Part shown: one piece after another, positions 20,027 through 38,965 of the stretch
Layout of the letters: each line of letters opens with the position of its first letter
Position numbering within the stretch: the stretch's first letter is position 1
NCBI RefSeq assembly: GCF_900230185.1
Contig: NZ_OCSR01000001.1
Coordinates: forward strand, 620,001-684,000
Origin: Burkholderia sp. OK233
GTDB lineage: Bacteria; Pseudomonadota; Gammaproteobacteria; Burkholderiales; Burkholderiaceae
Direction: 5' to 3'
Length of the DNA stretch: 64,000 bases
Notes under the pieces: generated by a model
Database searches by the model: none
What the model was told of the DNA's origin: nothing
Seen by the model: only the letters and a program-made list of their open reading frames with translations
Made by a program: the position numbers and the translations under genes

Positions 20027-20031
20027 GTTTC

Positions 20032-20063
20032 GCTGGGGTGGCCCAGGTATAAAGCGTCAGCAT
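20032..20063 (-). pseudogene. Glutathione S-transferase stub (first ten codons)
   Basis: Reading left from 20063, MLTLYTWATP matches the start of the GST at 25675 (MLKLYTWATP). The sequence then passes into the IS6 end. This is the broken last gene of the duplicated copy of the left catabolic block. Confidence 0.7.
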
Positions 20064-20071
20064 TCTCGCCC

Positions 20072-20371
20072 TCATCCCTTGTCCGGATTGCCCGACGTCC
20101 AATCCCAGGGCCTGACCGAGACCTCGGCGAATAAATCCGCCTTTCTGTAGGGGTCGCCGGCCGAGAACCGTTCGGCGGCCGCGAGGTCTGGCGCCTCGAT
20201 CACGATCAACGAACCGATCATCGTTGCGCCGTCAGGCGCCATGAATGGTCCGCCCAGCCGGTAAGTCACGCTAGGATGGGGGGCATGCAAGTATTCGCGA
20301 TGAGCCGGGCGCGTCCTGACTCTAAGATCAGTGACCCCGGGTCGGTCGACGGCGACGATAGCGAAGTACAT
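20072..20371 (-). CDS. YCII-domain protein (copy A)
   Basis: The 99-residue protein has a YciI-type dimeric alpha/beta fold pattern: MYFAIVAVDRPG, RPAHREYL, GATMIGSLIVIEA and AERFSAGDPYRKADLF. Members are small dimeric proteins that often act beside oxygenases or in ring-cleavage pathways; the YCII-muconolactone isomerase similarity is structural. The paralogue at 25684 differs at about a dozen positions. In both copies it directly follows the NMO gene, so the two probably act on linked steps. Confidence 0.8.
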   Translation of the reverse strand: MYFAIVAVDRPGVTDLRVRTRPAHREYLHAPHPSVTYRLGGPFMAPDGATMIGSLIVIEAPDLAAAERFSAGDPYRKADLFAEVSVRPWDWTSGNPDKG

Positions 20372-20488
20372 CGAAGCTCCTTAGTGTAGGTGAGGACCCA
20401 AGAGGTCGGCACGCTCAATCAAGACGGGATCATTCATCAACGGCATCGGGATTCTCGTTCTGATTTCGCATTGATGGCCTCGGCTTGT

Positions 20489-21496
20489 TTAGCGACCAGT
20501 CCGCAAATCCGCGATCTTGTCGAGCGCCGCCTCCGCTGTCGCCTCGATTTCCCCAACGATTTCTACTACAGACTTAACATCGTGTATGAGTTGAACCGTT
20601 GCGCCAGCATAGAGCGGACCTGCCTCCCAATCTCCCTCCATGGCGTCCCAGGGAGCCGCGACGTCATAGCGATAGAGTGGTTTTCCATTGGGGAAACACG
20701 ATATCGGCTCGCCTTCCCCTGGTCGTCGACCGGAAGTTGGACGACCGGCGTCTTCCCATCTGGAGAACGTGCAATTGCGTATCACCCGATGGGGAGACTC
20801 CTGCCAACCCGCATCGAAGAGCTCGGTCTCTACAAGGTCCGTCGCGCGAGCGGCAACAACCCGCTCCTTGTAACCGCGATGGTTGGCCGATTCCTTGCTC
20901 GCGACAAAGCGCGTTCCCATCCAGACTCCACAAGCACCAAGAGCCATCGCAGCGACCAGGCCCCGCCCCTCGGCAATACCGCCCGCAGCGACCACGGGGA
21001 CCCCTTTGGCGGCGTCAACGATAGAAGGCAGGAGCGACATCGTAGGCGCGGTCCCTACCAGATGACCTCCTGACTCGCGTCCTTGGGAAACGATAAAGTC
21101 GACGCCAATATCCTTTGCGCGCGCCGCATCTTCCGCGTTGCCCACTGTCCAGAACACAAGCCCGCCCGCATCTTTGATGATGCGAACATAGGGCTCGAGA
21201 TTTCCCTGCCACAGGGAGAATACGCGCACCCCCGCATCCAGTGCAGCGGCGAGCCTCTTCCGCTGGTCAACGATCAACGTCAGATTTGCACCAAACCGAC
21301 CGTTCGTAACCCGGCTAATTTCTGCAAGCTCGTCGCCTACAGTCTCTTCCGGCATATGCATCAGCGCAGTAAAGCCGAAGCTGCCGCTGTTCGCCATCGC
21401 TCCGAGAAATTCCGCGCTTGAGCCTCGCCCGAGAGGACCCGCCACGACCGGAACGCGCAAATCAAGTGCTTGGGTCAACGCTGTTTCGAAAGGCAT
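20489..21496 (-). CDS. Nitronate monooxygenase / NPD family (copy A)
   Basis: The 335-residue FMN-binding TIM-barrel protein shows the flavin-binding GRESGGHLVG and GVPVVAAGGIAEGRG segments, followed by GVWMGTRFVAS. This is the NMO (2-nitropropane dioxygenase-like) signature. Members oxidise alkyl nitronates, but many act on unknown substrates. The start ATG at 21496 is preceded by a GGAGAA site. It is the near-duplicate of the gene at 26130. Followed by YCII in the same operon. Confidence 0.88.
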   Translation of the reverse strand: MPFETALTQALDLRVPVVAGPLGRGSSAEFLGAMANSGSFGFTALMHMPEETVGDELAEISRVTNGRFGANLTLIVDQRKRLAAALDAGVRVFSLWQGNLEPYVRIIKDAGGLVFWTVGNAEDAARAKDIGVDFIVSQGRESGGHLVGTAPTMSLLPSIVDAAKGVPVVAAGGIAEGRGLVAAMALGACGVWMGTRFVASKESANHRGYKERVVAARATDLVETELFDAGWQESPHRVIRNCTFSRWEDAGRPTSGRRPGEGEPISCFPNGKPLYRYDVAAPWDAMEGDWEAGPLYAGATVQLIHDVKSVVEIVGEIEATAEAALDKIADLRTGR

Positions 21497-21549
21497 ATCA
21501 GCTTTTCTCCATGCTCAGATCGAGCGCTTATCGAGTTCATGGGTCCGCC

Positions 21550-21676
21550 TCAGATTTTCGCGGGCGCCAGCTGCGCAGACGCTACAAAGATCCTGCCATC
21601 CGCCACCGTGACCTCATAGGTTTCAATGTCCCCGTCTGCCGGCGGCGACAACGCCTTACCTGTGGTGACATCGAAT
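21550..21676 (-). pseudogene. Rieske ferredoxin, 3' remnant (copy A)
   Basis: Only the last 42 or so residues (FDVTTGKALSPPADGDIETY to QLAPAKI) remain. All four cluster ligands are lost. Comparison with the intact gene at 27190 shows a deletion of about 230 bp whose ends share AATT (CGAATT joined to TTCGCCTGACT). Confidence 0.8.
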
Positions 21677-22178
21677 TTCGCCTGACTTTTTTTCAGACCT
21701 GCGGATTCGACGGGGTTAGATCAACGTGGCACCCCGTGTGCATTGACTCCAAGTTAAACCTTTTTCCTGACGGGATAACTCCCCTCAAACTTGATAGACT
21801 TTTAGGCGAATCGAAAAAATCACGACCTTGCTTGGAGCGCCTGGCCGTTAGCCTGGGCCTTGGTAGAAAAGAACGACCGTGACCACCGAAGTGCGGAAGG
21901 TCCCGCCGTTTCGACAATCCTTCTTCCATCTCCGCTTGGTCCGTTCGCGGTTCTGGACCAATCCCTCCCGGCGCAACAGGACGTGCAGGCCAGGCAGGCT
22001 CGCCGGTACGACGGGATATCGGTGGCACGCCCAAGCTCGGGGAAGCAGCTGCGCAGATGAAACGCGAAGCCCGGGACGTCACAGCCACCCAAGACGCATA
22101 ACATCACGCGCCAACGTGCGCCGCAACGGTCGCGGCGACTCGATGGCGCGTCCCAGGAATCCTGTGTTGTACCGCAGA
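21677..22178. other. Duplicated leader and unassigned sequence
   Basis: The left part (to about 21851) matches the leader upstream of the Rieske gene at 27545-27718. The remainder (about 21880-22178) contains only broken coding-like stretches, perhaps transposase-derived, which I could not assign. Confidence 0.45.
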
Positions 22179-22817
22179 TCAACTCAACCCTATCTCTACT
22201 ACGCGCTTCCGGAATGCCTTACGTTCGCAAAGCAAGTCGTACCATCGTTGTACATTGCGGAAGTGAGGGCGTTCCACAGGGAGCGTTAGCCAGCGGTAAG
22301 CCAACGGCCCTACCGCAATATCCGCAATCGAAAAGGATCCGCCTCCCAGATATTCCGATCGCTCAAGAAACCGATCGAGCAAACCGAACAGTTCCGCATT
22401 TTGTTCACGGGCTTCATCAATTGCATCCTGGCTGCGCTCATGAGCCGGCGTTCGGACGATCCTCCGAAAGAGAAGTCCGTTCACCGGCGCTAAGGAGGAC
22501 AACTGCCAGTCCATCCAGCGATCGACCCAGGAGCGCGCAACAGACTCCGCTGGATACAGCGCGTCAGCGCGAAAATAATTGGCGAGATATCGGAGTATCG
22601 CGTTGGATTCCCACACCACCGCGTCTCCGTGAATCAGCGTGGGAACGACGCCATTCGGATTCTTTGCGAGGTAGTCGGCATCTTTGTTACCACCGAACTG
22701 ACCGCCCACGTCCACGCGCTCGCATGGCTGCTCGATTTCATCAAGTAACCACATGACTTTCTGCACGTTAGAGGAGTTGCTCCTCCCGAGAACCGTCAAC
22801 GCGTTACTGTTCGTCAT
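22179..22817 (-). CDS. Glutathione S-transferase (GstB-like)
   Basis: The 212-residue protein has an N-terminal thioredoxin-like domain (LGRSNSSNVQKVMWLLDE, NPNGVVPTLI, VVWESNAILRYLA) with the usual cis-Pro and Glu-Ser glutathione site. An all-helical C-terminal domain contains FSIADIAVGPLAYRW. It overlaps the upstream GST gene by 4 bp (ATGA), so the two are coupled. It likely conjugates or deglutathionylates a pathway intermediate; the substrate is unknown. Confidence 0.9.
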   Translation of the reverse strand: MTNSNALTVLGRSNSSNVQKVMWLLDEIEQPCERVDVGGQFGGNKDADYLAKNPNGVVPTLIHGDAVVWESNAILRYLANYFRADALYPAESVARSWVDRWMDWQLSSLAPVNGLLFRRIVRTPAHERSQDAIDEAREQNAELFGLLDRFLERSEYLGGGSFSIADIAVGPLAYRWLTLPVERPHFRNVQRWYDLLCERKAFRKRVVEIGLS

Positions 22818-23431
22818 GGCAAAATCTCCATGCCTCGCTGCACAGCGGTCCTCGAACCGATCGAGTCGTACCAACGTTTAACATTTGGAACATCCTCCCA
22901 CGCGAGTTGATGTAAATTAAAACGTGCTACCCATGGATAGATCGCAATATCGGCGATGGAATATTCGCTACCCGTGACATATTCCGAATCGCCGAGGCGT
23001 CCATCTAACACCCTGTACAGTCGATGCGTTTCTGCCGTATAACGGTCAAGGCCATATTTCTCCTGTGGCGCGTAACGGCGGAAATGATGCGTCTGCCCGA
23101 ACATCGGGCCGATGCCGCCCATCTGAAACATGAGCCACTGCATCGTCTCGTGACGTTCAACCCCGGAGGGCGGCAATAATTTTCCTGTCTTCTCTGCCAG
23201 GTAAATCAAGATCGCGCCGGATTCGAACAGCGTGATCTTCTTCCCTTGTGGTCCTTCCGGATCGACAATCACGGGGATCTTATTGTTCGGATTCATGGCG
23301 AGAAAGCTATCCTCGAATTGCTCGCCCTCTGAGATATCCACCATATGCACTTTGAAGGGGATCCGTAGCTCTTCTAAAGCTATGGATATTTTCCTTGCGT
23401 TTGGTGTTCCCCAAGCATACAAATCAATCAT
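22814..23431 (-). CDS. Glutathione S-transferase (YfcG/YghU-like, Nu-class type)
   Basis: The 205-residue protein begins MIDLYAWGTPNARKISI and contains NPNNKIPVIVD, LFESGAILIYLAEKTGK, WLMFQMGGIGPMFGQ and YSIADIAIYPWVAR. These closely resemble YfcG-type enzymes with disulfide-bond reductase or glutathione-transfer activity. The ATG at 23431 was chosen because it matches family N-termini; 17 upstream codons were rejected. It is coupled to the downstream GST by ATGA and lies 72 bp after glutathione reductase. Confidence 0.9.
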   Translation of the reverse strand: MIDLYAWGTPNARKISIALEELRIPFKVHMVDISEGEQFEDSFLAMNPNNKIPVIVDPEGPQGKKITLFESGAILIYLAEKTGKLLPPSGVERHETMQWLMFQMGGIGPMFGQTHHFRRYAPQEKYGLDRYTAETHRLYRVLDGRLGDSEYVTGSEYSIADIAIYPWVARFNLHQLAWEDVPNVKRWYDSIGSRTAVQRGMEILP

Positions 23432-23503
23432 CTTTTTCCTCTCCCGCGATGCATTCTCTGTTATAGCGGCACGTCGGGTCATTCCGCGGCGCTGATACCC
23501 GAA

Positions 23504-24874
23504 TCAGGAACCCAGCCGAGTTGCATATCTTGCATTTCTCAGCGTGACGAACTCTTCCGCCACGCTCGGGTGTACACCCAGTGTGGCGTCAAAGTCCGCC
23601 TTCGTTGCTCCCGCCTTGAGTGCCACAGCAATGCCTTGAATGATCTCGGCAGCGTCCGGCGCCACGATGTGCGCACCCAGGATTCGTTCAGTCGTCGCGT
23701 CCGCAATGAGCTTCACCAGGACGCGCTCATTTCGACCGGAAAGTGCAGCGCGCATTGGGCGAAAGACGCTGCCGTACACCCGAACACCGTCGTGTATCGC
23801 ACAAGCTTGCTCCTCGGTGAGACCTACCGAGGCGACCTGCGGCTGACTAAATACGGCAAACGGAACACCTTCGTGGTCTACTGGACGGGACATGTCTCCG
23901 AAGACGGTGTCGGCAAAAGCATGGCCTTCGTGGATCGCGACAGGTGTCAGGTTAAGACGATTTGTGACGTCGCCCACCGCGTAGACGTGATCGGACGATG
24001 TGCGCGAATAGCTGTCTACAGGGATCGCTCCGTGTGCGTCAACATGAACGCCGACACGTTCAAGGCCCAGACTGCCTGTGTTCGGCCTTCGTCCTGTCGC
24101 GGCCATCACGAGATCCACCTCCAGAATCTCGCCAGAACCGAGGTAAAGCAGATATGCGTTGTCTTTTCGCTCAACTGCAGCGACTGTACTAGCGAGTCGC
24201 ATCTGAATATCGTTCGCAGCCAGCTCACTCCCAATATGCTCCCGGACCTGTTCGTCGAATCCGCGTAGCAGCTTCGATCCACGATGGATCATCCACACGC
24301 TTGATCCAAGTCCCTTAAAAATGCCTGCAAATTCGCAGGCTATATATCCACCCCCAACAATCGCGACCCTTTCTGTAGCGTGTTCCATCGCTAACACGTC
24401 GTTGGACGTCACCATCAGTTCGGTGCCGGGAAACTTAGGCACCTCTGGCGTCGCTCCAGTGGCGACCAATATGCGACCCGCCGTATAGCTCACATCGTTC
24501 ACGCGAACCTCGTGTGCGCCAACAATGGTTGCTTTTCCCGTTATCACCTCGACCCCGGCCTTGCCGAGTAGCTCCTCATATATCCGCTCCAAACGTGCAA
24601 CCTCGATGTCTTTCGCACGAATCAGGCTTTGCCAGTTGTGTGACGCTTCTGACACCCGCCAGCCGAACCCCTTGCTGTCCTCAAGCCCCATTCCGAATTG
24701 GGATGCGTACATCAACAGTTTTTTCGGCACACACCCACGAATCACGCATGTACCGCCGAGCCTGTACTCTTCCGCGACAGCGACCTTCGCGCCATATCCT
24801 GCCGCTATACGACTTGCACGGACGCCACCGGATCCACCGCCTATAACGAACAGGTCAAAGTCATACGTATTCAT
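23504..24874 (-). CDS. gor: Glutathione reductase
   Basis: The 456-residue flavoprotein has the FAD site IGGGSGGVRASR, the redox disulfide C43/C48 (GGTCVIRGCVPKK), an NAD(P)-binding IVGGGYIACEF and the C-terminal active-site HPSVAEEFVTL. This is the complete glutathione-reductase set. The start is the ATG at 24874. Placed between GST genes, it would regenerate glutathione used by the pathway. It is upstream of the two coupled GST genes and may be read from the same transcript as the genes to its right or from its own leader (24875-25050). Confidence 0.92.
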   Translation of the reverse strand: MNTYDFDLFVIGGGSGGVRASRIAAGYGAKVAVAEEYRLGGTCVIRGCVPKKLLMYASQFGMGLEDSKGFGWRVSEASHNWQSLIRAKDIEVARLERIYEELLGKAGVEVITGKATIVGAHEVRVNDVSYTAGRILVATGATPEVPKFPGTELMVTSNDVLAMEHATERVAIVGGGYIACEFAGIFKGLGSSVWMIHRGSKLLRGFDEQVREHIGSELAANDIQMRLASTVAAVERKDNAYLLYLGSGEILEVDLVMAATGRRPNTGSLGLERVGVHVDAHGAIPVDSYSRTSSDHVYAVGDVTNRLNLTPVAIHEGHAFADTVFGDMSRPVDHEGVPFAVFSQPQVASVGLTEEQACAIHDGVRVYGSVFRPMRAALSGRNERVLVKLIADATTERILGAHIVAPDAAEIIQGIAVALKAGATKADFDATLGVHPSVAEEFVTLRNARYATRLGS

Positions 24875-25050
24875 CGAGAGTTCCCGCACACTGTAAAAAG
24901 ACGAAAGCACCTAACCTGCTTCACGGTTACCTCCGAACGGACCGCCGACGTCCGTTTGAGTGAACAGGACATTCAGCTCCGCCAGGCACTAGAGAAATTT
25001 TTGTACGTTCGAAAAGGGACGGCGCCCGAGGATATGAATCATCACGCGCC

Positions 25051-25675
25051 TCAGGCAGGCGTTGCCGGCACATTCATGCCCCGCCGAACGGCAGGTCTGG
25101 CGCCGACCGCGTCGAACCATCGGCGGACGTGCGGCACGGTCTCCCAATCCAGGTCATGAAGCGCGTGACGTGCGACCCAAGGATAGATCGCGATATCCGC
25201 TATGCTGAACGCCTCGCCGTTGAGGTACGGCGATGCATCGAGCTGCGTATTCAACACCGCGTATAGCCGTCGCGTCTCTGCCTGATAGCGCGCCAGCCCG
25301 TAAGTCTCGTTCGCTGCGTAGCGCCTGTAGTGATGAAGCTGCCCGAAGATCGGTTCGACACCACCCATTTGAAACATAAGCCAGCGTCGATGCCCGGCGT
25401 GAGCCGTTTGCCGGAAGCAGCGCGCTGCCGAATTTCTCTGCAAGGTAGATGAGGATTGCGCCCGACTCGGCCAGCACCACACGATCGCCCCCTTCCCCGT
25501 CGGTGTCGACCAGTACCGGGATCTTGTTGTTCGCATTCAAAGCAAGGAACTCGGAGCGAAGCTGCTCGCCCTTCGTGATGTTCACCGAATGCACCTCATA
25601 AGAGAGGCCGAGCTCCTCGAGCATGACGGACACCTTGCGACCATTCGGCGTGGCCCACGTATAGAGCTTCAGCAT
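25051..25675 (-). pseudogene. Glutathione S-transferase, frameshifted
   Basis: From the ATG at 25675 (MLKLYTWATPNGRKVSVM) the frame is intact to ALLPANGSRRAS. It then slips near 25400, where the second frame continues WLMFQMGGVEPIFGQLHH to the stop at 25051. Compared with the intact paralogue at 22814, about 5 bases are missing between Thr and the Trp of WLMFQ. Otherwise it is full length and close to that paralogue, so this is either a recent pseudogene or a base-calling error. Confidence 0.75.
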
Positions 25676-25683
25676 TCTCGCCC

Positions 25684-25983
25684 TCACGCCTTGTCCGGAT
25701 TGCCCGTTCCCCAATCCCAGGGCCTGACCGAGACCTCCGCGAACAGATCCGCCTTTCTGTAGGGGTCGCCGGCGGAAAACCGTTCGACGGCCGCGAGGTC
25801 TTGCGCCTCGATCACAATCAACGTCCCGATCATCGTCGCGCCGTCAGGCGCGAGGAGTGGTCCGCCCAGCCTGTAAGTCACGCCAGGATGGGCGGCTTGC
25901 AAGTATTCGCGGTGAGCCGGGCGCGTGCTGACTCTAAGATCAGTGCTCCCCGGTCGGTCGATGGCGATGATAGCGAAGTACAT
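25684..25983 (-). CDS. YCII-domain protein (copy B)
   Basis: The 99-residue protein is a near copy of the one at 20072 (MYFAIIAIDRPG, RPAHREYLQ, GATMIGTLIVIEAQDL, SAGDPYRKADLF). It lies 8 bp upstream of the frameshifted GST and about 145 bp after NMO copy B. A small enzyme or accessory protein of the same pathway is expected; the function is not known. Confidence 0.8.
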   Translation of the reverse strand: MYFAIIAIDRPGSTDLRVSTRPAHREYLQAAHPGVTYRLGGPLLAPDGATMIGTLIVIEAQDLAAVERFSAGDPYRKADLFAEVSVRPWDWGTGNPDKA

Positions 25984-26129
25984 CGAAGCTCCTTAGTGTA
26001 AGTGAAGACCCAAGAGGTCGGCACCCTCAATCAAGAGGCCCGCCTGCTGTAGGCTTTTCCGCGCCTGGGACCGTGCATCAACGGCATTGGGATTCTCGTT
26101 CTGATTTCCCATTGATCGCCCCGGCTTGT

Positions 26130-27137
26130 TTAGCGACCGGTCCGCAAATCCGCGACTTTTTCAAGCGCCGCCTTCGCCGTCGCCTCGATTTCCCCAACGA
26201 TTTCTGCTACAGACTTGACATCGTGTATGAGGTCAATCGTTGTGCCGGCATAGAGCGGACTGGCCTCCCAATCTCCCTCCATGGCCTCCCAAGCAGCCGC
26301 GGCGTTATAGCGATAGAGTGCTTTTCCATTGGGAAAACGCGATATAAGCTCGCCTTCTCCAGGTCGTTGGCCGGCAGATTGGCGACCGGCGGCTTCCCAT
26401 CTGGAGAACGTGGAATTGCGTATCACCCGATGGGGACATTCCTGCCCAGGCGGATCGAAGAGCTCGGTTTCTACAAGGTCCGTCGCGCGGGCTGCAACAA
26501 GCCGCTCCTTGTAACCGCGATGGTTGGCCGATTCCTTGCTCGCGACAAAACGCGTTCCCATCCAGACTCCACAAGCACCAAGAGCCATCGCAGCGACCAG
26601 GCCACGCCCATCTGCGATACCGCCCGCCGCTACCACGGGGACCCCTTTGGCGGCGTCAACGATGGAAGGCAGGAGCGACATCGTAGGCGCGCTTCCTACG
26701 TAATGACCGCCTGCCTCCCGTCCTTGGGACACGATAAAGTCGACGCCAATATCCTTTGCGCGCGCCGCATCTTCGGGGTTACCCACTGTCCAGAACACAA
26801 GCCCGCCTGCATCCTTGATGACACGAACATAGGGTTCGAGATCTCCCTGCCACAGGGAGAATACGCGCACCCCCGCATCCAGTGCAGCGGCGAGCCACTT
26901 CCGCCGATCACGGGTCAACGACAGATTTGCACCAAACCGACCGTTCGTAACCCGGCTAATTTCTGCAAGCTCGTCGCCTACAGTCTCTTCCGGCATATGC
27001 GCCGCCGCAGTAAAGCCGAAGCTGCCGCTATCGGCCATCGCTCCGAGAAATTCCGCGCTTGAGCCTCGCCCGAGAGGACCCGCCACGACCGGAACGCGTA
27101 AATCAAGTGCTTTGGTCAATGCTGTTTCAAAAGGCAT
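26130..27137 (-). CDS. Nitronate monooxygenase / NPD family (copy B)
   Basis: The 335-residue FMN barrel protein carries GREAGGHYVGSAPTMSLLP, GVPVVAAGGIADGRGLVAAM and GVWMGTRFVASK. I chose the ATG at 27137, which gives the same length as copy A and has GGAGAAA upstream; a GTG 15 bases earlier is the alternative. The proteins of the two copies differ at scattered positions, so both may still be functional. Its leader and the Rieske gene lie directly upstream. Confidence 0.88.
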   Translation of the reverse strand: MPFETALTKALDLRVPVVAGPLGRGSSAEFLGAMADSGSFGFTAAAHMPEETVGDELAEISRVTNGRFGANLSLTRDRRKWLAAALDAGVRVFSLWQGDLEPYVRVIKDAGGLVFWTVGNPEDAARAKDIGVDFIVSQGREAGGHYVGSAPTMSLLPSIVDAAKGVPVVAAGGIADGRGLVAAMALGACGVWMGTRFVASKESANHRGYKERLVAARATDLVETELFDPPGQECPHRVIRNSTFSRWEAAGRQSAGQRPGEGELISRFPNGKALYRYNAAAAWEAMEGDWEASPLYAGTTIDLIHDVKSVAEIVGEIEATAKAALEKVADLRTGR

Positions 27138-27189
27138 ATCGGCTTTCTCCACGCTCAGATCGAGCGCTTATCGAGTTCATGGGTCCGTC

Positions 27190-27522
27190 TCAGATTTTCG
27201 CGGGAGCCAGCTGCGCAGATGCTACAAAGATCCTGTCATCCGCCACCGTGACCTCGTAGGTTTCAATGTCCCCGTCTGCCGGCGGCGACAACGCCTTGCC
27301 TGTGGTGACATCGAATTGCGCACCATGGAGCGGACATTCGACCACACAGCCCTCGAGGTAGCCGTCCGAGAGATAGGCCAAAGCGTGCGAACAGATATCA
27401 CTGGTCGCATACACCTTGCCTTCCACGTTAGAGAGCAGAATCCGCGTGGTTCCCACGAACACACATTTCATGTTGCCGGGCTTTAATTCCGCGACACTAC
27501 AAACATCCTGACCTTTAAGCAT
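27190..27522 (-). CDS. Rieske [2Fe-2S] ferredoxin
   Basis: The 110-residue soluble ferredoxin has the complete Rieske ligand set: C44 and H46 (CSH) and C63 and H66 (CPLH). It resembles the small NirD/BphF-type electron carriers of multicomponent oxygenases. It is the first gene of the leftward block and precedes NMO copy B. It could serve the Rieske oxygenase at 37694, whose own ferredoxin gene looks damaged. Confidence 0.9.
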   Translation of the reverse strand: MLKGQDVCSVAELKPGNMKCVFVGTTRILLSNVEGKVYATSDICSHALAYLSDGYLEGCVVECPLHGAQFDVTTGKALSPPADGDIETYEVTVADDRIFVASAQLAPAKI

Positions 27523-27787
27523 GCTTCACCTTTAATTCACCTAATTTCGCCTGACTCTTTTCAGACCTGTAGATTCGACGCGGTTAGATCAACGTGGCAC
27601 CCCGTCTGAATTGACTCCAAGATAAACCCTTTTCCTGACGGGATAACTCCCCTCAATCTTGATAGACCTTCCGGCGATTCGAAAAAATCATGAACTTGCG
27701 TGGAGTGCTTGGCCCCCGGTGTCAGACTCGTTGTAGCGTCATCTGATTCACGTCGACAAAGGTCGGCGGGCGGTACGCTCAGGGTGA
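27523..27787. other. Leader of the left catabolic block
   Basis: No gene is seen. The stretch 27545-27718 is conserved in both duplicate copies and presumably contains the promoter and operator of the block. No convincing -35/-10 pair could be fixed by eye. Confidence 0.4.
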
Positions 27788-28374: not shown

Positions 28375-29058
28375 ATGACTATCTCGTTAGCGCGTTCGAA
28401 GACGACCCCATCTTGCGCGAGCCTCTCGCCCAATGGAGCAGCAGTTCAGTCCGAAAAGGCACGTGTCGTTCTTGCGGGGGCGAGGGCCGTTTTCTTGGCC
28501 AACGGTTTTAGCGCCGCGACGACCGACATGATCCAGCAGGCCGCCGGGGTATCGAAATCGACGGTCTATTCGCACTATCCCAACAAGGAAGCCTTGTTCG
28601 TGGCAGTTGTCGAAGCCGAATGTGAGCAGTTTCTGAAAACTGTCCGTCAGCACAAATTTCCTGAGAGATGCCTTGTAGACAATCTGGATGCGATAGCGCA
28701 GGCGTACCTTGAGATTGTGCTGTCGCGTGATGGACTGGCGTTGTATCGGGCCATTGTGTCCGAAGCGACGAGATTTCCCGAGCTTGGAAGACGCTTCTAT
28801 CTAGCGGGTCCGGGTGCCATGAATAATGCCGTCGCGGAAACTTTGGAAGCCGCCGAGGCTAGAGGGGAAGTCGACCTTGGTAGCGTCGGACGCGATTCCG
28901 CAGCCTCGCTCCTTGTGAATATGGTGCGTGGCGAAGCGCAGATGCAATGCCTGACGCACCCCGAATCCTCTGCGTCTGCCGCCCAACGGGATCGATGGGC
29001 AAAAGACGCGGTCACAACCTTTCTGCGTGCTTTCCAGAAAAATGCCTCAGGCGGCTGA
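28375..29058 (+). CDS. TetR-family regulator between the catabolic blocks
   Basis: The 227-residue protein has the AcrR-type N-terminal domain, VVLAGARAVFLANGFSAAT then TTDMIQQAAGVSKSTVYSHY, and a C-terminal ligand domain of the kind found in TetR proteins with an added Pfam tetramer-type tail. The first ATG (28375) gives a 30-residue leader before the first helix, so a later start is possible. It is divergent from the leftward block starting at 27522, which makes it the prime candidate to repress that block and itself. Confidence 0.88.
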   Translation: MTISLARSKTTPSCASLSPNGAAVQSEKARVVLAGARAVFLANGFSAATTDMIQQAAGVSKSTVYSHYPNKEALFVAVVEAECEQFLKTVRQHKFPERCLVDNLDAIAQAYLEIVLSRDGLALYRAIVSEATRFPELGRRFYLAGPGAMNNAVAETLEAAEARGEVDLGSVGRDSAASLLVNMVRGEAQMQCLTHPESSASAAQRDRWAKDAVTTFLRAFQKNASGG

Positions 29059-31769: not shown

Positions 31770-31879
31770 AGCTTTCTCGATCTTTCTTCTGTTGAGACAA
31801 ATCATTGGCAAGCATGGACTAAAACATGTTGCGGTGTCTCGCCGACTTGCCCCAAGGTTTCGTAAGTTTGGCGGTAGAT

Positions 31880-32130: not shown

Positions 32131-32946
32131 CTAGAGGGTGTTAGGAACTTGGACAGTCGGCGCAACATGTACAAGCATGAGCATGGCGAAGACAACGAAG
32201 TGCAGGCCTGCTAACGTTTCAGGTAGGCGCTCGTAGTCTCGCGCCAGTCGCCGGAACCGGTTGAGCCAGCCGAAACTACGTTCGACAACCCATCGGCGCG
32301 GCAGCAGCACGAAGCCCTTCTTCGCCTCTGGTAGTTTGATGATCTGAAGTTCGATGCCTTCGTCATGCGCAGCCTGTCGAGCTGTGTCACCGGTATAGCC
32401 CTGGTCAGCGAATGCAAGCTTTACCGTCTGACCGGTTGCCTGCTGAACCTGACGCGCAAGCTCGGCTACCTGTGCGCGCTCCTGCTCGTTGGCCGGCGTG
32501 ATGTGTACCGCCAGCAGCAGACCTAACGTGTCGACAGCCATATGGACTTTGCTGCCTCGCTTGCGCTTGTGACCGTCGTAACCCGCGCGCGGTCCGCTCT
32601 CGCAGGTGGACTGCAAGGTGCGCCCATCCAGGATCACCGCACTGGGCTGCCCCTGACGCTCCTGCGCGACCCGAATTACAGATCGCAGATCACTGACCAT
32701 TGCCTCGAAGCAGCCCGCGTTCAACCAGCGTTGCGTTTGCTGGTAGACCAACTCCCATGGTGGAAAATTGGTCGGCAGCATACGCCACGACGCACCCGCT
32801 CGCGCCATCCAGCGCAACGCATTGAACATCTCGCGCAGTTCATACCGCCGCTGTGGCGCATCTTCATTCATCAACGTTAGATAGGGAGCCGCAAAGCTCC
32901 ACTCTTCATCCGAGACATCTGTGGGGTATGGCTTGCGTTCTGTCAT
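32131..32946 (-). CDS. IS5-family transposase
   Basis: The 271-residue DDE transposase contains AVILDGRTLQST, AFADQGYTGDTARQAA and the C-terminal RRWVVERSFGWLNRFRRLA, which carries the catalytic Glu. The start is the ATG at 32946 (MTERKPYPTD). The TAG stop at 32131-32133 is supplied by the CTAG target site and not by the element itself, so the reading frame closes only because of where it inserted. Confidence 0.93.
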   Translation of the reverse strand: MTERKPYPTDVSDEEWSFAAPYLTLMNEDAPQRRYELREMFNALRWMARAGASWRMLPTNFPPWELVYQQTQRWLNAGCFEAMVSDLRSVIRVAQERQGQPSAVILDGRTLQSTCESGPRAGYDGHKRKRGSKVHMAVDTLGLLLAVHITPANEQERAQVAELARQVQQATGQTVKLAFADQGYTGDTARQAAHDEGIELQIIKLPEAKKGFVLLPRRWVVERSFGWLNRFRRLARDYERLPETLAGLHFVVFAMLMLVHVAPTVQVPNTL

Positions 32947-32989
32947 TCCGCCAGGGTACCAGGTCTGGCGGAAAGTGCCTAACACCCTC
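32134..32989 (-). mobile_element. IS5-family insertion sequence, intact
   Basis: The 856-bp element has matching ends (GAGGGTGTTAGGAACTT at the left, GAGGGTGTTAGGCACTTT read inward from the right). It is inserted in a CTAG site with TA duplicated on both sides. It separates the decarboxylase-like gene from the SDR remnant without damaging the former's stop codon. Confidence 0.88.
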
Positions 32990-33444
32990 TAGACTGTGGC
33001 GTCGGCTCGCTCCTTGCTCTCGGACTCGGCCAACTGAGCGATGATCTCTGCACCGCGGTTTGCGACCGGCATCCCACCATAGATGTAAGCCAGACTAACG
33101 ACGGCTTGCATCTCTTCCCAGGTAGCGCCAGCTCTACGCGCTGCGCGGGCATGCAACATGGCCGCGTCGAGTAGTTTGGCGAGGAGCATGCCAAACACGA
33201 TGAGCTGAGAGATTTTCGTATCGAAACACGCCGGATACATAGCGCGACGGCGCGCCTCCTCTTGCAGACCAAGGAGTTCAGGATCGAGCGCGCCCGTCAC
33301 CGCCAGTCGAGCGGCTATGCGTGGCGGCACGAAGCCGATGAGGTCCTTGTAGTCCTGCTCGCGTTCAGTGAGAGGAGTTTGTGTATCTGCGTATGAGCCG
33401 ATTTCGCTTCTAACCGCATCCATATCCAAGCTGGCGTGTGCCAT
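32989..33444 (-). CDS. Carboxymuconolactone decarboxylase-like (AhpD fold) protein
   Basis: The 151-residue all-helical protein shows KISQLIVFGMLLAKLLDAAM, LHARAARRAGATWEEMQAVV and AYIYGGMP. This is the CMD pattern, but the CxxC of AhpD peroxidase partners is replaced: the segment lacks both cysteines, leaving the histidine. The ATG at 33444 was chosen over a longer frame. It would act in a ring-fission or lactone step, or as a non-redox relative. The IS5 element begins exactly at its stop codon. Confidence 0.78.
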   Translation of the reverse strand: MAHASLDMDAVRSEIGSYADTQTPLTEREQDYKDLIGFVPPRIAARLAVTGALDPELLGLQEEARRRAMYPACFDTKISQLIVFGMLLAKLLDAAMLHARAARRAGATWEEMQAVVSLAYIYGGMPVANRGAEIIAQLAESESKERADATV

Positions 33445-33576
33445 TGATAGAGTCCTTCCATTTCGAAATTTATTGTCGTCAGCGTGCCGATGATCGAGCC
33501 CGCGCACATCGGCAACATGAAGCACAACGTTGTCCAGGACTGTCCGCCCAGGCAGGGTAGCCGGCGGAGCTTCGCT

Positions 33577-34548
33577 TCAGGGCTGCAGCACCAGGGAGCC
33601 GACCGTCTTGCGGGACTCCATGGCACGATGCGCTTCAGCTGCGTCCTTGAGCGGGAAGCGCTGGTTGATGAGGACCTTCACTGCGCCCGACAGCACGACG
33701 TCGAACACCTCCTTGGCGCCCTCTTCGACATGGGCGCGGGTCGGCAGGTAAGCATTCTGGGTCGGGCGGGTCAGGAACAGCGAACCCTTCTTGTCGAGGA
33801 TGCTGATGTCGAATGGCGGCACCGGGCCGGAGGACTGGCCGTAGAGCACCATCAGGCCGCGCGGCTTGAGGCAGTCGAGCGAGCCCATGAAGGTATCCTT
33901 ACCGATCGAGTCATAGACGACCGGAACGCCGACGCCGCCCGTGATCTCCTTCACCGCCTTGACGAAGCGGTCCTTGCCGTGGATCAGCGGATAGTCGCAG
34001 CCGTGAGCCTTCACGATCTGCGCCTTTTCCTCGGTCGACACGGTGCCGATAACGGTCGCGCCAAGATGCTTGGCCCACTGGCAGAGCACGAGGCCCACGC
34101 CGCCCGCGGCGGCATGCACGAGGATCGTGTCGCCCTTGCTGACCTGGTAGGTCTGGCGGCACAGGAACTGGGCCGTCATGCCCTTCTGCATCATCGCCGC
34201 ACCGAACTCGTCGCTGATGCCGTCGGGGAGTTTGACGAGGCGATCGGCCGGCACGAGCCGGACCTGGGCATAGGCGCCTTGCACGCCGCTATAGACGACG
34301 CGGTCGCCCGGCTTCAGCGAAGTGACGTCAGGCCCGACTGCCTCGACCACGCCGACGGCTTCGCGCCCCGGGATGAAGGGCCGCGGCAGCTCGTAGAGGC
34401 CGGCGCGGTAGTAGATGTCGATGAAGTTCACGCCAACGGCCGTCTGGCGAAGTCGTGCTTGTCCTGGACCGGGATCGCCGACGGAGATCTCATCCCAGAC
34501 AAGTTTTTCGGGTCCGCCGGTCTCGTGAATGCGGATGGCATAGGGCAT
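33577..34548 (-). CDS. NADPH:quinone oxidoreductase (zeta-crystallin type)
   Basis: The 323-residue medium-chain reductase lacks structural zinc ligands. It has GVNFIDIYYRAGLY, PGREAVGVVEAVG and the NADPH loop HAAAGGVGLVLCQWAKHLGA, all diagnostic of QOR-type enzymes. It reduces quinones or enones with NADPH in the cytoplasm. It lies between the decarboxylase-like and DUF3500 genes on the same strand and probably reduces a quinone or unsaturated ketone made by the oxygenase. Confidence 0.92.
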   Translation of the reverse strand: MPYAIRIHETGGPEKLVWDEISVGDPGPGQARLRQTAVGVNFIDIYYRAGLYELPRPFIPGREAVGVVEAVGPDVTSLKPGDRVVYSGVQGAYAQVRLVPADRLVKLPDGISDEFGAAMMQKGMTAQFLCRQTYQVSKGDTILVHAAAGGVGLVLCQWAKHLGATVIGTVSTEEKAQIVKAHGCDYPLIHGKDRFVKAVKEITGGVGVPVVYDSIGKDTFMGSLDCLKPRGLMVLYGQSSGPVPPFDISILDKKGSLFLTRPTQNAYLPTRAHVEEGAKEVFDVVLSGAVKVLINQRFPLKDAAEAHRAMESRKTVGSLVLQP

Positions 34549-34612: not shown

Positions 34613-35881
34613 TCACTTCGGCGCTTCCGCTGCACTCCGGCCAGCGGGCTCAGCCGTGTTGTGCGAGTGCGACCCGTGGGTGTGCGCGTGCGTATGGGCT
34701 CCATGGTCATCGGTGTGCCACTGGAGGTAATGCTGGCGCAGCAGGTCCTTGCCATAGTCCTTGCCATTCGGCGTGCGCACGAGCGTGTGGATGTGATCGC
34801 GGGACGGCGTATTGTTGTCGAACACGATGCCGGGCTGGTGGTCGAACTCGACCAGGATCGCCGGGCTCAGGATGCGGTAATAGAACGCGCTGGTATCGTC
34901 GAACGGCCCGATCCAGGCGAAATGCGTATCGTCGAGATGGTGTTTGACCTCGGCCCAGCGCAGTTCGGCATGACCGGGGCGGATCTGCCCGATATAGGTC
35001 GCCAGCAGCGCCTTGAGACGCTCGCGGCCTTCCTGCGGCAGGTCCGCATAACGGATGCCGCCCGGCTCGATATGCCGGTTATCGTTGAACGCACCAGCGA
35101 ACACTTCCCACGGCAGCTCAGTGCCGATCGTCGCCTGTTGCCGCGCCTCGGCCGACAGCGCGCTCATCAGCGCATGCCCCTGTTCCTCCTCGGCGGCAAA
35201 CACGCGGGTACCCTTATGTTTGCCGAACCGCGCCAGGACCGGCTCTGATCCCATAAGGGTCGGCGTCGTGACGAGCTGGTCGCCGAGCACGAAGCAATTG
35301 ACGTTGAGGTGGTGGCCATCGATCTGCCAGCCCCAGGGCTCGTTGGGCGAGGGCGTGCCGAAAATGCTGACCCAGTAGTACCACTCGCTGTATTCCTCGG
35401 GCTTGCCCGTTATTTCGAGGGCGTGCTCGTTGAGCCGCATGACGTCGCACGCGGTCTGATAACCCGTCGCGCTCATCGTCTCGCGCAGCAGTGCCAGCGC
35501 TGCCTCGCGCTGGCCGTGGCCGAGATCGGCGAGGCAGATCCCACTGCGGGGTATCAGCCAGGGATGAAAGTTGGACCACTGCCGCCACGCCTCGTCGTCG
35601 ATTGCGAGGCACGCGGCGCGCCGCTGCCCGGCGTCGAGGCTCGCGAGAAAGGTGCGCGCCGCGTCGAGCAGCGGGGCGAGCGAGGCGTCGGCGGCAGTGG
35701 CCGGGAATAGCCCCGGGGCAACCGAGCCGGTGCAGCTTATCCCGCGAAATGGCTCGGCCAGACCCGCCTGTGCCATATCGACCAGCTTCTGCTGGCGCGA
35801 CGTCAGCTCGAATGCTCGGATCGCCGGCGCCGCCGGCCAGTTGCGCAATCCGAAATGTGCTGTTTCTCCTGCCATACTCAT
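34613..35881 (-). CDS. DUF3500 protein with histidine-rich tail
   Basis: The 422-residue protein belongs to DUF3500. It has the conserved core WGWQIDGHHLNVNCFVLGDQ with neighbouring LVTTPTLMGSEP, and later RDHIHTLVRTPNGKDYG. The C-terminus is His-rich (HTDDHGAHTHAHTHGSHSH), suggesting metal binding. No signal peptide is apparent. The start is the ATG at 35881, with GGGAGG upstream. No enzymatic function is established for the family. Its place between the NMO remnant and quinone reductase in an oxygenase operon points to a catabolic, possibly metal-dependent, step. Confidence 0.82.
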   Translation of the reverse strand: MSMAGETAHFGLRNWPAAPAIRAFELTSRQQKLVDMAQAGLAEPFRGISCTGSVAPGLFPATAADASLAPLLDAARTFLASLDAGQRRAACLAIDDEAWRQWSNFHPWLIPRSGICLADLGHGQREAALALLRETMSATGYQTACDVMRLNEHALEITGKPEEYSEWYYWVSIFGTPSPNEPWGWQIDGHHLNVNCFVLGDQLVTTPTLMGSEPVLARFGKHKGTRVFAAEEEQGHALMSALSAEARQQATIGTELPWEVFAGAFNDNRHIEPGGIRYADLPQEGRERLKALLATYIGQIRPGHAELRWAEVKHHLDDTHFAWIGPFDDTSAFYYRILSPAILVEFDHQPGIVFDNNTPSRDHIHTLVRTPNGKDYGKDLLRQHYLQWHTDDHGAHTHAHTHGSHSHNTAEPAGRSAAEAPK

Positions 35882-35941
35882 CGTCCTCCCGGTTGTTCGG
35901 CCGCCACCCGAAGGCAAGCCGAGATTGGAAACACGCTCGTG

Positions 35942-36163
35942 CTAAGTGAAGCGTTGAGCTAACGCGGCTTCGGCCTCAGCGACCACGCGGCCAACGATTG
36001 CACCGGCCAGCTCGACCGCCCGTATCAAATCGATCGCTTCGCCGGCGTAAACGGCAGCGGTCTCGTAGTCGCCCGCCGCGCGGGCTTTCGGCGCTAGCAG
36101 GATTGGGTGACGCATTCCGGGCAAGTCGGTCCGTTTCGTCCGCAACGTCGATTCGGCCGTCAT
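35942..36163 (-). pseudogene. Nitronate monooxygenase, internally deleted
   Basis: The 73-codon frame joins an NMO N-terminus (GMRHPILLAP) directly to the C-terminal helices (YAGEAIDLIRAVELAGAIVG, EAEAALAQRF). The roughly 250-residue barrel between them is missing, so no flavin site remains. Its start overlaps the reductase stop by 4 bp (ATGA), showing that the original gene was part of the operon. Confidence 0.75.
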
Positions 36164-37413
36164 ACTTGCGCTGCCTCACGTCGCGAGAGGCTGGTGGCGT
36201 ACGCCCGCAAATCGAAATCGGGGTCGGCGGCCTGTTCCGGCGACAGACGCGGGTCGGCGAGCAGCAGTCGGCGCGAGATCACGTGGTCGGTCGGCCGATT
36301 GATCGACTCGACGCCGGTCAGGGTGCCGTCGCGGAAGCAGAACACCGAAAAGCTGCGACTCTCAGGGTCGCCGCGCAGCACCACGCGGTCGCCGCCGACG
36401 GTGTTGCCGGCGATCTGCAATTTCAAATCGGCTTGGTCGGTCCAGAACCATGGCACCTTGTCGTAGGGTATCGATTTGCCGACGATCCCAGCAGCGACGG
36501 CGTGGCCCTGGTCAACGGCGTTCTGCACCGATTCGAGGCGGCAGCGGCCGGCCGCGAAGCGGCTCGGGAAGTTGGCGCAATCGCCGACCGCGAAGATCGT
36601 TGGGTCGGCGGTCGCCAGGTTCTGGTCGACGACGATGCCGTTGTCGATCGCCAGCCCCGCTGCCGCAGCGATCTCGGTATTTGGCAGGACGCCGATGCCG
36701 ATCAATACGAGGTCGGCCGGCAGTTTGCGGCCATCGCTAGTTTCAACCCCGCTGACCCGCCCGTAGCCGAGAATACGGACGACGCCGGTGCCGAGCAGAA
36801 CGTCGGAGCCCCAGTCTCGGTGCGCCCTGGTGTAGAAGCGGGACGTCTCCTCGGAGACGACGCGCCCCATCGGCCGCTGCGTCACCTCGACGATGTGTAC
36901 GCCAACCCCAGCCTGACGAGCGACAGCGGCAAATTCGAGGCCAATGAAGCCGGCGCCGATGACGACGACTTCGCGCGCCTCTGCGAGTCGCGGCCGCAAA
37001 GCGTCGGCGTCAGCGAGCGTGCGCAGCGGCAAAACGCCATCAAGTTCGACGCCCGGGACCGACAAGGGACGGAAGCGGGCACCGGTCGCCAACACCAATC
37101 GGTCGTACGCAACCTTGCGGCCAGAGGCGAGTTCGACATGCCGCGTCTGCCGATCAATCGCAGTCGCGGTCTCGCCTCGTTCCAGCTCGATTCGTTCCTT
37201 TTCGTAGAACGTCTCCGGCCGCAGCCAGAGGCCGTCGAGCCCCGTCTCGCCTGCCAGGTAGGATTTCGACAGGGGTGGTCGGTCGTAGGGGATGCAGGGC
37301 TCGTCGCCGATCACCCGAATCCTGCCGTCGAACCCCGCCTGGCGCAGCGAGGTGGCCGTCTGAAAGCCGGCCTGGCCGGCACCGACGATGACAACTGTCG
37401 AGTTCGGCTTCAT
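36160..37413 (-). CDS. FAD-dependent ferredoxin reductase of the Rieske oxygenase system
   Basis: The 417-residue protein has two nucleotide-binding folds, VVIVGAGQAGFQTATSLR for FAD and VVVIGAGFIGLEFAAVAR for NAD(P)H. It also has the IFAVGDCANFPS motif and a C-terminal reductase domain as in BphA4/rubredoxin reductases. The ATG at 37413 overlaps the ferredoxin stop by 4 bp. It should pass electrons from NADH to a ferredoxin that feeds the oxygenase encoded upstream. Confidence 0.93.
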   Translation of the reverse strand: MKPNSTVVIVGAGQAGFQTATSLRQAGFDGRIRVIGDEPCIPYDRPPLSKSYLAGETGLDGLWLRPETFYEKERIELERGETATAIDRQTRHVELASGRKVAYDRLVLATGARFRPLSVPGVELDGVLPLRTLADADALRPRLAEAREVVVIGAGFIGLEFAAVARQAGVGVHIVEVTQRPMGRVVSEETSRFYTRAHRDWGSDVLLGTGVVRILGYGRVSGVETSDGRKLPADLVLIGIGVLPNTEIAAAAGLAIDNGIVVDQNLATADPTIFAVGDCANFPSRFAAGRCRLESVQNAVDQGHAVAAGIVGKSIPYDKVPWFWTDQADLKLQIAGNTVGGDRVVLRGDPESRSFSVFCFRDGTLTGVESINRPTDHVISRRLLLADPRLSPEQAADPDFDLRAYATSLSRREAAQV

Positions 37414-37598
37414 AACCGGGTGTCCATCAGTTCCACGACGAGGCCGCCCGTCCCCGGCGACGCCACCCATTGGCAGGAGAGGCCGCCGTTCGGACGGCGC
37501 TCACAAGGTGTAAATTCGAGCATCTCGTTTTCGTTCCATTTTGAGGTGCAGCCGGGATCGCCTTCCGCGACATGGTCGTGGCAGGCGTCGCACATCAC
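37410..37598 (-). CDS. Plant-type [2Fe-2S] ferredoxin, N-terminally short
   Basis: The 62-residue frame resembles the C-terminal half of adrenodoxin-type ferredoxins: CDACHDHV, NEMLEFTPCERRPNGGLSCQ, GGLVVEL. The usual set is C-x5-C-x2-C plus a distal Cys. Here the last three are present but the first appears replaced: just upstream, without a normal start, the frame reads GEGGDAVMC. About 35 N-terminal residues have no clear counterpart. It may be a non-functional remnant. It lies between oxygenase and reductase genes, as expected for the electron carrier. Confidence 0.6.
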   Translation of the reverse strand: MMCDACHDHVAEGDPGCTSKWNENEMLEFTPCERRPNGGLSCQWVASPGTGGLVVELMDTRL

Positions 37599-37693
37599 CG
37601 CATCACCGCCCTCGCCTGCGACGCTGACGAAGCCGTTGACGACGCGGGATGCACGTCCCTGGCGTCGAGCGCCAGGAACGTAGCTTCAGCAAA

Positions 37694-38965
37694 TCAGGCG
37701 AGGCGCCCCACGTTGTCGCCGAGGGCGGCGGCTTCGGCCGAGGTGAGGACCGCGTTCCAGGTCCCGGTCGGAATGCCGTACGCGGCGTCCTTGTCGCGCA
37801 CGACGTTGAGCGGGTCGAGGCCTTGTTCCAGCCGCTTCAATTGCTCGCGCAACATACGTCGCAACATGACGACGCCGGTGTCGGAGGTGCCAAGGTTTTC
37901 GAGCGCATGCACGGCAGTCGTGCGCTGGCCCTCTTGCGCTTCGCGGTCGTCGGGCTTGCGCTGGCGCTCCTCGTAGCTCCGCTCCAAAGCCGCGCCCGGC
38001 CGGACCGCGTCGCTGATGTCAGTGCCGGGGCGCCAGTCGGCTTTCGGCACGCCCCCCTCCAACGGCCAGGCGACGATGCTGATGCCGCGAACATGCTCGT
38101 TGTCGATCGGCACCGTCCAGGACAGTTCAGTGGCGCGCGTTTTGCGAGCGCCGCTGTCGTAGACGGCGGGGACCAGGAAGGCGTTCGGCAAGATGCATTC
38201 GGCATGGCGAATGAAGTGGTTGCCATTCGGCAACTCGCGCACCATGTTGAAGCGGACTCCTAATGGCGTCTTCTCAAAGTCGATCTTGGCCATGTCGCGC
38301 ACCTTCGTGCCCTGCGTTAGGCCCTCGAGCATGTTATGCCCCTGGTTGCCGCTGATCACCTGGTGCAACATGATGAGGTGCCAGGGATCGACGACGTTCT
38401 CGTAATGCTGCAGCCAGTTGCAGTCCTTGACGTAGCCGATCCCTTGGTCGCCCCAGAGCCGCATGCCACGCAGTTCGACCTCGCCCACCACGTTCGGGTC
38501 GATGATGTCGTAGACCGGGAATATCGGCTCTGTGCCGGCCGGGCCCATATAGACGAAGACGAGCCCGCCAAATTCGAGGGCCGGATAGGCCGGCTGCCAG
38601 ACATTCATCCGCTCGCGAAACTCCTCGGTCTCGCACGGCATCTCGAGGCAGCGTCCATCGGTGCCGTAGAGCCAGCCGTGAAAGCAGCAACGCAACCCCC
38701 TTTCCTCGACCCGCCCCCATTCGAGCGAGGTGCCGCGATGCGAGCAATGCGGCTTCAAGGCGCCGACCTTCCCTGCCCCGTCGCGGAACAGAACGATCTC
38801 CTCGCAGAGGAGCTTTTCCTTGCGCGGCCGGTCGCTCACTTCATCCGAGGTGCAGACAGGCTGCCAGTAGCGTCGCAGCAACTCGCCCATTGGGCTGCCC
38901 GCCTCGACGCTGGTAAGTTCGGAAGCGGCTGGTGGGGTTTGGTGTCCATAAGCAGACTGCATCAT
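37694..38965 (-). CDS. Rieske non-heme iron oxygenase, alpha subunit
   Basis: The 423-residue protein has the complete Rieske site C74/H76 and C93/H96 (CSHRGTSLEWG, CCFHGWLYG). The mononuclear iron triad is D193, H196 and H201 (NVVDPWHLIMLHQ). Single-subunit architecture and the RYWQPVCTSDEV opening place it with phthalate dioxygenase and O-demethylase-type (VanA/LigX-like) enzymes. GGAGGA precedes two tandem ATGs (38965 and 38962). It is the first gene of the right block and probably hydroxylates or demethylates the pathway substrate. Confidence 0.92.
   Translation of the reverse strand: MMQSAYGHQTPPAASELTSVEAGSPMGELLRRYWQPVCTSDEVSDRPRKEKLLCEEIVLFRDGAGKVGALKPHCSHRGTSLEWGRVEERGLRCCFHGWLYGTDGRCLEMPCETEEFRERMNVWQPAYPALEFGGLVFVYMGPAGTEPIFPVYDIIDPNVVGEVELRGMRLWGDQGIGYVKDCNWLQHYENVVDPWHLIMLHQVISGNQGHNMLEGLTQGTKVRDMAKIDFEKTPLGVRFNMVRELPNGNHFIRHAECILPNAFLVPAVYDSGARKTRATELSWTVPIDNEHVRGISIVAWPLEGGVPKADWRPGTDISDAVRPGAALERSYEERQRKPDDREAQEGQRTTAVHALENLGTSDTGVVMLRRMLREQLKRLEQGLDPLNVVRDKDAAYGIPTGTWNAVLTSAEAAALGDNVGRLA

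Follow-up and report, generated by a model that had tools for sequence, protein, structure and literature searches.

The described systems closest to the gene cluster reported here, an island at 20-39 kb of a 64,000-nucleotide stretch of Burkholderia sp. OK233 (assembly GCF_900230185.1, contig NZ_OCSR01000001.1, positions 620,001 to 684,000 of the forward strand; hereafter the window), are the 2,4,5-trichlorophenoxyacetate (2,4,5-T) tft genes, with TftG, and the pPNP1 cluster of Pseudomonas sp. JS425, which share with it a TftG-like YCII protein, an aldehyde dehydrogenase (ALDH) and a Rieske-type ferredoxin (Fdx). A glutathione-reductase-like gene is also present in tft, and in pPNP1 the YCII gene is flanked by an intradiol dioxygenase gene and the ferredoxin gene. 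The island differs from both in that maleylacetate reductase and intradiol dioxygenase were not found in it, and in its additional genes for a DUF3500 protein, nitronate monooxygenase (NMO)-like flavoproteins, a quinone reductase-like protein (QOR), a CMD-like protein and a pair of glutathione S-transferases (GSTs); moreover, the Rieske-type ferredoxins of the two cluster types have no match to each other. A further likeness is with the fungal 1,2,3,5-tetrahydroxybenzene pathway of Aspergillus nidulans, where a hydroxylase is accompanied by the DUF3500 protein AN10530, for which excerpts of the review PMC12388069 report a proposal that it converts 1,2,3,5-tetrahydroxybenzene to 5-hydroxydienelactone; this likeness is one of description and not of compared sequences, and the island, unlike the fungal pathway, is bacterial and has a Rieske system. 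The only solved DUF3500 relative, ApmL/Amc20 from amipurimycin biosynthesis (PDB 9x86), has the same fold and the same GHHL and HxH motifs as the DUF3500 protein of the window, but is biosynthetic, 297 residues long, labelled a dehydratase and, in an alignment judged by eye, different at positions 225, 279 and 280.

The island is real and conserved, and we propose, as a tentative reading on which we are close to evenly divided, that it degrades an aromatic compound via a polyhydroxybenzene whose ring would be opened by the DUF3500 protein, likely a metalloenzyme, instead of a classical ring-cleavage dioxygenase. What is new here is the conserved cluster itself, the exchange of hydroxylases around a DUF3500 core, the invariant site of that protein and the catabolic clade to which it belongs. 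An earlier sequence-only reading of the window had seen in this interval a possible undescribed degradation pathway; its observation was mostly right, and its interpretation was right in kind and imprecise on chemistry. In particular, its remark that it knew of no named pathway for this gene set agrees with our literature searches, which gave none for this catabolic island, and its two leftward gene blocks flanking a rightward TetR/LysR pair are borne out by coordinates and strands. Block 1 (38965 to 30324) and Block 2 (27522 to 20489) contain the genes in the order listed below, as called by Pfam and NCBIfam profile scans of the island open reading frames (ORFs).

37694..38965, minus strand: Rieske oxygenase alpha subunit (RO; PF00355; CxH..CxxH and ExxxDPxHxxxxH motifs)
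36160..37470, minus strand: BphA4-type ferredoxin reductase (FdR; PF07992 and PF14759)
34613..35917, minus strand: DUF3500 protein, predicted ring-opening metalloenzyme (PF12006, 324.9 bits, cut-off 27.2)
33577..34548, minus strand: NAD(P)H:quinone reductase-like protein (QOR; NF008024, 337 bits, slightly below the cut-off of 348)
32989..33525, minus strand: CMD-like protein (PF02627, 29.1 bits)
32131..32992, minus strand: IS5-family insertion sequence element (NF033580, above cut-off; 20-bp inverted repeats)
30324..31811, minus strand: aldehyde dehydrogenase (ALDH; PF00171, E 1.7e-163; GQRC motif)
29203..30126, plus strand: LysR regulator (PF00126/PF03466)
28375..29058, plus strand: TetR regulator (PF00440/PF14246)
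27190..27522, minus strand: Rieske-type ferredoxin (Fdx; PF00355; CxH..CxxH motif)
26130..27152, minus strand: NMO/FabK-like flavoprotein, copy 2 (PF03060)
25687..25983, minus strand: YCII protein, TftG-like (PF03795)
25051..25714, minus strand: third GST, degenerate, split over two frames
23504..24910, minus strand: glutathione-disulfide reductase (GR; TIGR01424, 608.7 bits, cut-off 606.05; motif GGTCVIRGCVP)
22814..23482, minus strand: GST2, YfcG/Nu-type (NF010579, E 3.3e-60, below cut-off; YfcG among the solved relatives)
22179..22874, minus strand: GST1 (PF02798/PF00043)
20489..21496, minus strand: NMO/FabK-like flavoprotein, copy 1 (PF03060; 87% identical to copy 2)
20035..21846, minus strand: shortened duplicate of 25647-27714 (89-90% DNA identity)

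Within the blocks the genes are separated by anything from small overlaps to gaps of 242 bp (GST1, when read from an inner ATG chosen by us as start codon, overlaps GST2 by 4 bp), the exceptions being the IS5-family element, flanked by 319 bp, and the 682 bp that precede NMO copy 1. Co-transcription of the genes within each block is likely. The profile scans confirmed the three-component oxygenation, GST, GR, QOR, CMD-like, DUF3500 and ALDH genes named in the sequence-only reading. Catalytic motifs of RO, Fdx, ALDH and GR were found, and the Rieske system is complete, with an alpha subunit carrying both Rieske and mononuclear iron motifs, a Rieske ferredoxin and a ferredoxin reductase whose best solved relatives are ferredoxin and putidaredoxin reductases. 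The CMD-like protein has no CxxC motif and no solved relative at E<=0.01.

When ten reference proteins covering ring cleavage and the steps that follow it were searched by tblastn (1e-4), no match was found in the island or the syntenic stretches of other genomes, the rest of the genome lying outside this search; one weak cycloisomerase-like match was located at 2.9-3.5 kb, outside the island, and the Pfam scans of the island ORFs found no known ring-cleavage family. Because no ring-cleavage reference matches the island, the DUF3500 protein is the remaining ring-opening candidate. The family is large (5185 homologues at E<=0.001 among 7997 candidates scored), and H202, H203, H375, H377 and R381 are invariant in 54/54 aligned sequences, the four-histidine motif (GHH, HxH) being kept throughout, with E357 present in 52 of them. 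The four invariant histidines and the arginine form a putative metal site. Comparison of the DUF3500 profile with the hydroquinone dioxygenase PnpD, the sole ring-cleavage class compared, gave an hhalign probability of 0.2%. In the abstract of the primary paper on the fungal proposal (Martins 2024), DUF3500 is reportedly described as a likely ring-cleavage enzyme whose gene is clustered with those of a monooxygenase and an FAA-hydrolase-like protein. A table of PMC8416521 places a Rhodococcus DUF3500 gene within a few locus tags of that of an MhpA-type hydroxylase, and the excerpts of PMC3990503 merely list the domain. The sequence-only reading had stated that DUF3500 has no assigned function, which is outdated given the ring-opening proposal for AN10530 (in the excerpts of PMC12388069) and the 'dehydratase ApmL' title of PDB 9x86.

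The co-occurrence of these genes in other genomes, anticipated in the earlier reading, was found in another genus. In Cupriavidus pinatubonensis HN-2 the genes follow the island order in a single direction (RO-FdR-DUF3500-QOR-CMD-ALDH / LysR / Fdx-NMO-YCII-GR-GST-GST), with protein identities of 93% for RO, 86% for FdR, 86% for DUF3500, 90% for QOR, 84% for CMD, 89% for ALDH and 88% for LysR in the first part, and of 85% for Fdx, 87% for NMO, 87% for YCII, 65% for GR, 68% for GST2 and 59% for GST1 in the second; since the same order recurs, the gene set is more than chance. TetR has no match in HN-2 or the other syntenic loci. The shared gene set was also found in three Paraburkholderia loci. 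Protein identities of 82-95% to Paraburkholderia and Cupriavidus suggest, from the sequence side, a source within the Burkholderiaceae. Paraburkholderia panacisoli has, on one contig and besides the shared genes, the Rieske system, a FAD_binding_3 hydroxylase, a second QOR and the transhydrogenase PntAB, and Paraburkholderia hiiakae has NMO, YCII, GR, GST2, GST1, QOR, CMD, ALDH, a FAD hydroxylase, a second QOR, DUF3500, PntAB and LysR; in both the arrangement differs from that of the island, and the FAD hydroxylase joins or replaces RO. UYCP14C has the P. hiiakae order over a stretch that starts at the end of YCII. RO has 93-95% identity to its HN-2 and P. panacisoli counterparts, and LysR 79-88% to those in the syntenic loci. 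No RO homologue was found genome-wide in P. hiiakae at E<=1e-20, nor any ferredoxin match in the two stretches of it that were read. The constant genes are DUF3500 (present in all five loci of the window type), QOR, CMD, ALDH, YCII, GR, the GST pair and LysR, together with NMO wherever the stretch reaches. Since P. hiiakae has the FAD_binding_3 hydroxylase in a cluster without an RO homologue and P. panacisoli has both enzymes, the hydroxylase is exchangeable around a constant core that includes DUF3500. The P. hiiakae NMO match (G692:C11:44739-45752) has one in-frame TAA.

Beyond these clusters, DUF3500 also lies beside Rieske genes in P. sprentiae, genome G236 and Streptomyces chartreusis, as it does in HN-2 and P. 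panacisoli, and NMO accompanies it in HN-2 as well as in P. panacisoli and P. hiiakae, so that the association with both gene types put forward in the sequence-only reading was recovered. The clade of the window's DUF3500 protein was defined by the signature E225/D279/N280, and its neighbours were searched by tblastn, within 7 kb, for a Rieske oxygenase, a FAD_binding_3 hydroxylase, HpaB or an FAA hydrolase. A hydroxylase or FAA hydrolase was found near 15 of the 26 clade loci (the window and the duplicate L088 excluded), against 1/26 DUF3500 loci outside the clade (Fisher p=4e-5) and 1/20 control stretches from elsewhere in DUF3500-bearing genomes (p=2e-4). By their annotation, the P. sprentiae locus contains an LLM flavoprotein, Rieske, FAA hydrolase, DUF3500, FAA hydrolase and cupin, that of S. 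chartreusis DUF3500, Rieske, an epoxide hydrolase and a PDR/VanB reductase, and that of Thioclava DUF3500, FAA hydrolase, HpaH and an HpaI-type aldolase; in an alphaproteobacterial metagenome-assembled genome, HpaB adjoins DUF3500. Outside the clade, DUF3500 tends to stand alone or with hypothetical and HupE/UreJ genes. On plasmids of Agrobacterium rubi and Deinococcus aetherius (L075, L076), a non-clade DUF3500 gene is followed by HupE/UreJ directly or after one gene.

Several points weigh against ring opening by DUF3500 and against the test just described. The clade signature and the counted families were picked post hoc; reference proteins were taken from eight of the loci, and four loci are clusters of the window type; without these eleven loci the counts become 5/16 versus 1/25 (p=0.026) and versus 1/20 controls (p=0.069). 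Cytochrome P450 was left uncounted, and its inclusion gives 2/26 outside the clade. Eleven of the 26 clade loci (L005, L006, L007, L008, L010, L011, L037, L079, L081, L083 and L086) have no such neighbour, some of their stretches being short, and L005, which at 72% identity is one of the closest homologues not set in a cluster of this type, matches no reference gene. Additionally, FAA hydrolase, common near the relatives and directly beside DUF3500 in several bacterial ones, was not found in the island, and the sole solved relative carries a dehydratase title. The main rival explanation, which we consider unlikely, starts from this title and takes the protein for a metal-dependent dehydratase acting on a hydroxylated alicyclic or ring-opened intermediate, with another activity opening the ring. 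Against it, ApmL lacks the E225, D279 and N280 that mark the clade of the window, no other ring-opening gene was found in the island, and the label comes from the entry title only, 'ApmL' being absent from the excerpts of PMC10698177 and PMC11188666, and 'Apm' from those of PMC12247030.

For ring opening by DUF3500, the following scheme can be drawn, whose steps we infer from sequence, the substrate, the metal and the activity of DUF3500 being predictions. RO, with the ferredoxin and its reductase, would hydroxylate or dealkylate the substrate, a task that would fall to the FAD hydroxylase in P. hiiakae. QOR and the NMO/FabK-like flavoproteins might protect an easily oxidised intermediate of the hydroquinol type by keeping it reduced. 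A substituent might be stripped by the TftG-like YCII protein together with the GST pair, with the GR of the cluster recycling the resulting glutathione disulfide. The ring would then be opened at the DUF3500 site formed by H202, H203, H375, H377 and E357, and the resulting acid or semialdehyde would be processed by the CMD-like protein and ALDH, the two blocks being presumably controlled by LysR and TetR. It is a serious possibility that this DUF3500 step represents a new class of ring-opening enzyme. Going further, the E225/D279/N280 clade as a whole could form a new structural class among the aromatic ring-opening dioxygenases, its metal site built from four histidines and a glutamate in a fold so far solved in ApmL alone, interchangeably substituting for intradiol and extradiol enzymes after Rieske, FAD or HpaB hydroxylases, a proposal that we hold as possible and distinctly doubtful. 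Should DUF3500 indeed open the ring, this would add one more ring-opening type to the few known, extend to bacteria what has been proposed for tetrahydroxybenzene in fungi, and place DUF3500, still of 'unknown function' in Pfam, in a bacterial context, with candidate residues for catalysis and a straightforward assay. The two existing labels of the family, ring-cleaver and dehydratase, are hereby set in testable opposition.

The accessory genes bear on the kind of substrate. The best solved match of the YCII protein is TftG, the 5-chloro-2-hydroxyhydroquinone dehydrochlorinase (E 1.5e-11), with which it has in common one histidine and a DP(Y/F)xKA motif, and the ALDH is 37-39% identical to ALDHs from two hydroxyquinol-type clusters. 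Among the plasmid relatives of YCII that were inspected, those of B. multivorans (55%) and pPNP1 (48%) have an intradiol dioxygenase on one side and a Rieske-type protein on the other, with ALDH and maleylacetate reductase upstream, and two YCII genes of C. necator pBB2 (44%) adjoin maleylacetate reductase; no feature is annotated under the top plasmid match, that in B. cenocepacia (56%). Genes related to the GST2-GST1 pair adjoin or overlap each other in three places: in Sphingobium herbicidovorans pSHV3 (59/50%), beside YCII; in Sphingobium MI1205 pMI2 (65/49%), along with maleylacetate reductase, chloromuconate cycloisomerase and a 33% YCII; and in P. aromaticivorans (66/54%), where Rieske genes and a maleylacetate reductase are also present. 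In Tardibacter pHSL1 a single GST is close to a muconate cycloisomerase. These neighbourhoods point to hydroxyquinol or chloro/hydroxy-aromatic catabolism. The pSHV3 locus (L119) is on a 10-kb plasmid where YCII, the two GSTs and nitroreductase-annotated fragments lie next to IS1247.

The TftG-like YCII protein, and the plasmids on which its relatives and those of the GST pair accompany chloromuconate cycloisomerase or hydroxyquinol-type genes, would also suit a halogenated or nitrophenol pathway in the manner of 2,4,5-T or p-nitrophenol degradation, with DUF3500 in a side role; this is improbable, given that neither maleylacetate reductase nor hydroxyquinol dioxygenase has a tblastn match at 1e-4 in the island or syntenic stretches and that DUF3500 is in every one of the five window-type loci. 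The presence of two GSTs (GST2 being YfcG/Nu-like) and a dedicated glutathione reductase might instead suggest an aryl-ether-cleaving module like the lignin beta-etherase system, the remaining genes degrading the released phenol, an explanation to which we give very little probability and against which speak the neighbours of the GST pair's relatives, which are YCII or maleylacetate reductase genes.

As to the flavoproteins, the sequence-only reading had counted three NMO loci, of which two are genes of the interval, the third match in the genome being about 5 Mb away and 38% identical (E<=1e-30). Its nitronate-monooxygenase chemistry has the PF03060 match behind it (131.5 and 142.7 bits for the two copies) but stays putative: the solved proteins that match best are FabK-type enoyl reductases, followed by, among others, a 'putative nitroalkane dioxygenase' and PA1024, which we take to be a quinone reductase. 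Nothing specific indicates the nitroalkane or cyclic ketone substrates that it had named for growth tests, the YCII and GST relatives suggesting hydroxyquinol-type aromatics. Copies of NMO at 84-87% identity are confined to these clusters (8 genomes searched). The nearest solved kin of RO is a phthalate-4,5-dioxygenase-type protein (PDB 7fhr, E 1.3e-40), and its closest plasmid relatives are about 42% identical; one that was inspected pairs with a PDR/VanB reductase, whereas the island has a ferredoxin and a BphA4-type reductase. Since the best solved match of RO is of the phthalate-4,5-dioxygenase type and the UYCP14C FAD hydroxylase is similar to polyketide oxygenases, no single substrate can be named.

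The island also carries traces of rearrangement. The duplicate at 20035-21846 contains a GST fragment, a second YCII (20078-20371), NMO copy 1 and a ferredoxin remnant (21553-21681). The P. panacisoli cluster likewise has two NMO copies. The IS5-family element, missed by the sequence-only reading together with the GST in two frames, has its inverted repeats at 32131-32150 and 32973-32992; the CMD stop codon abuts it, and it parts ALDH from the rest of Block 1. Of the insertion sequences that the earlier reading had placed at the borders, IS6 and IS66 do match, one at each end, as remnants of just ~170 bp that resemble Paraburkholderia transposase genes (IS6 near 19.64-19.81 kb, IS66 near 39.13-39.31 kb). 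Horizontal transfer of the island is plausible from these remnants and from the occurrence of the cluster in two genera. The split GST, the shortened duplicate, the element between CMD and ALDH and the border remnants might alternatively mark a decaying, insertion-riddled island with no working pathway in this strain; we judge this quite improbable, as the remaining enzyme genes are open and the set is conserved in two genera, and the third GST looks dispensable, because its counterpart is broken in HN-2 too and fragmentary in P. panacisoli.

Elsewhere in the window, a GC-richer gene set at 1583-8941 (plus strand), with PdxA-like, MR_MLE enolase-superfamily, MFS transporter, amidohydrolase and aldehyde dehydrogenase genes, looks like a separate catabolic operon. 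At 45780-47513 (minus strand) a cyclic-nucleotide-binding domain is fused to a thioredoxin-reductase-like flavoprotein, and at 53063-55587 (minus strand) genes for an outer-membrane efflux protein and an HlyD-type adaptor form part of an efflux system. Finally, two DDE_Tnp_1/DUF772 transposase genes at 58848-60287 (plus strand) and 62069-63508 (minus strand) form an inverted pair, a possible composite element.

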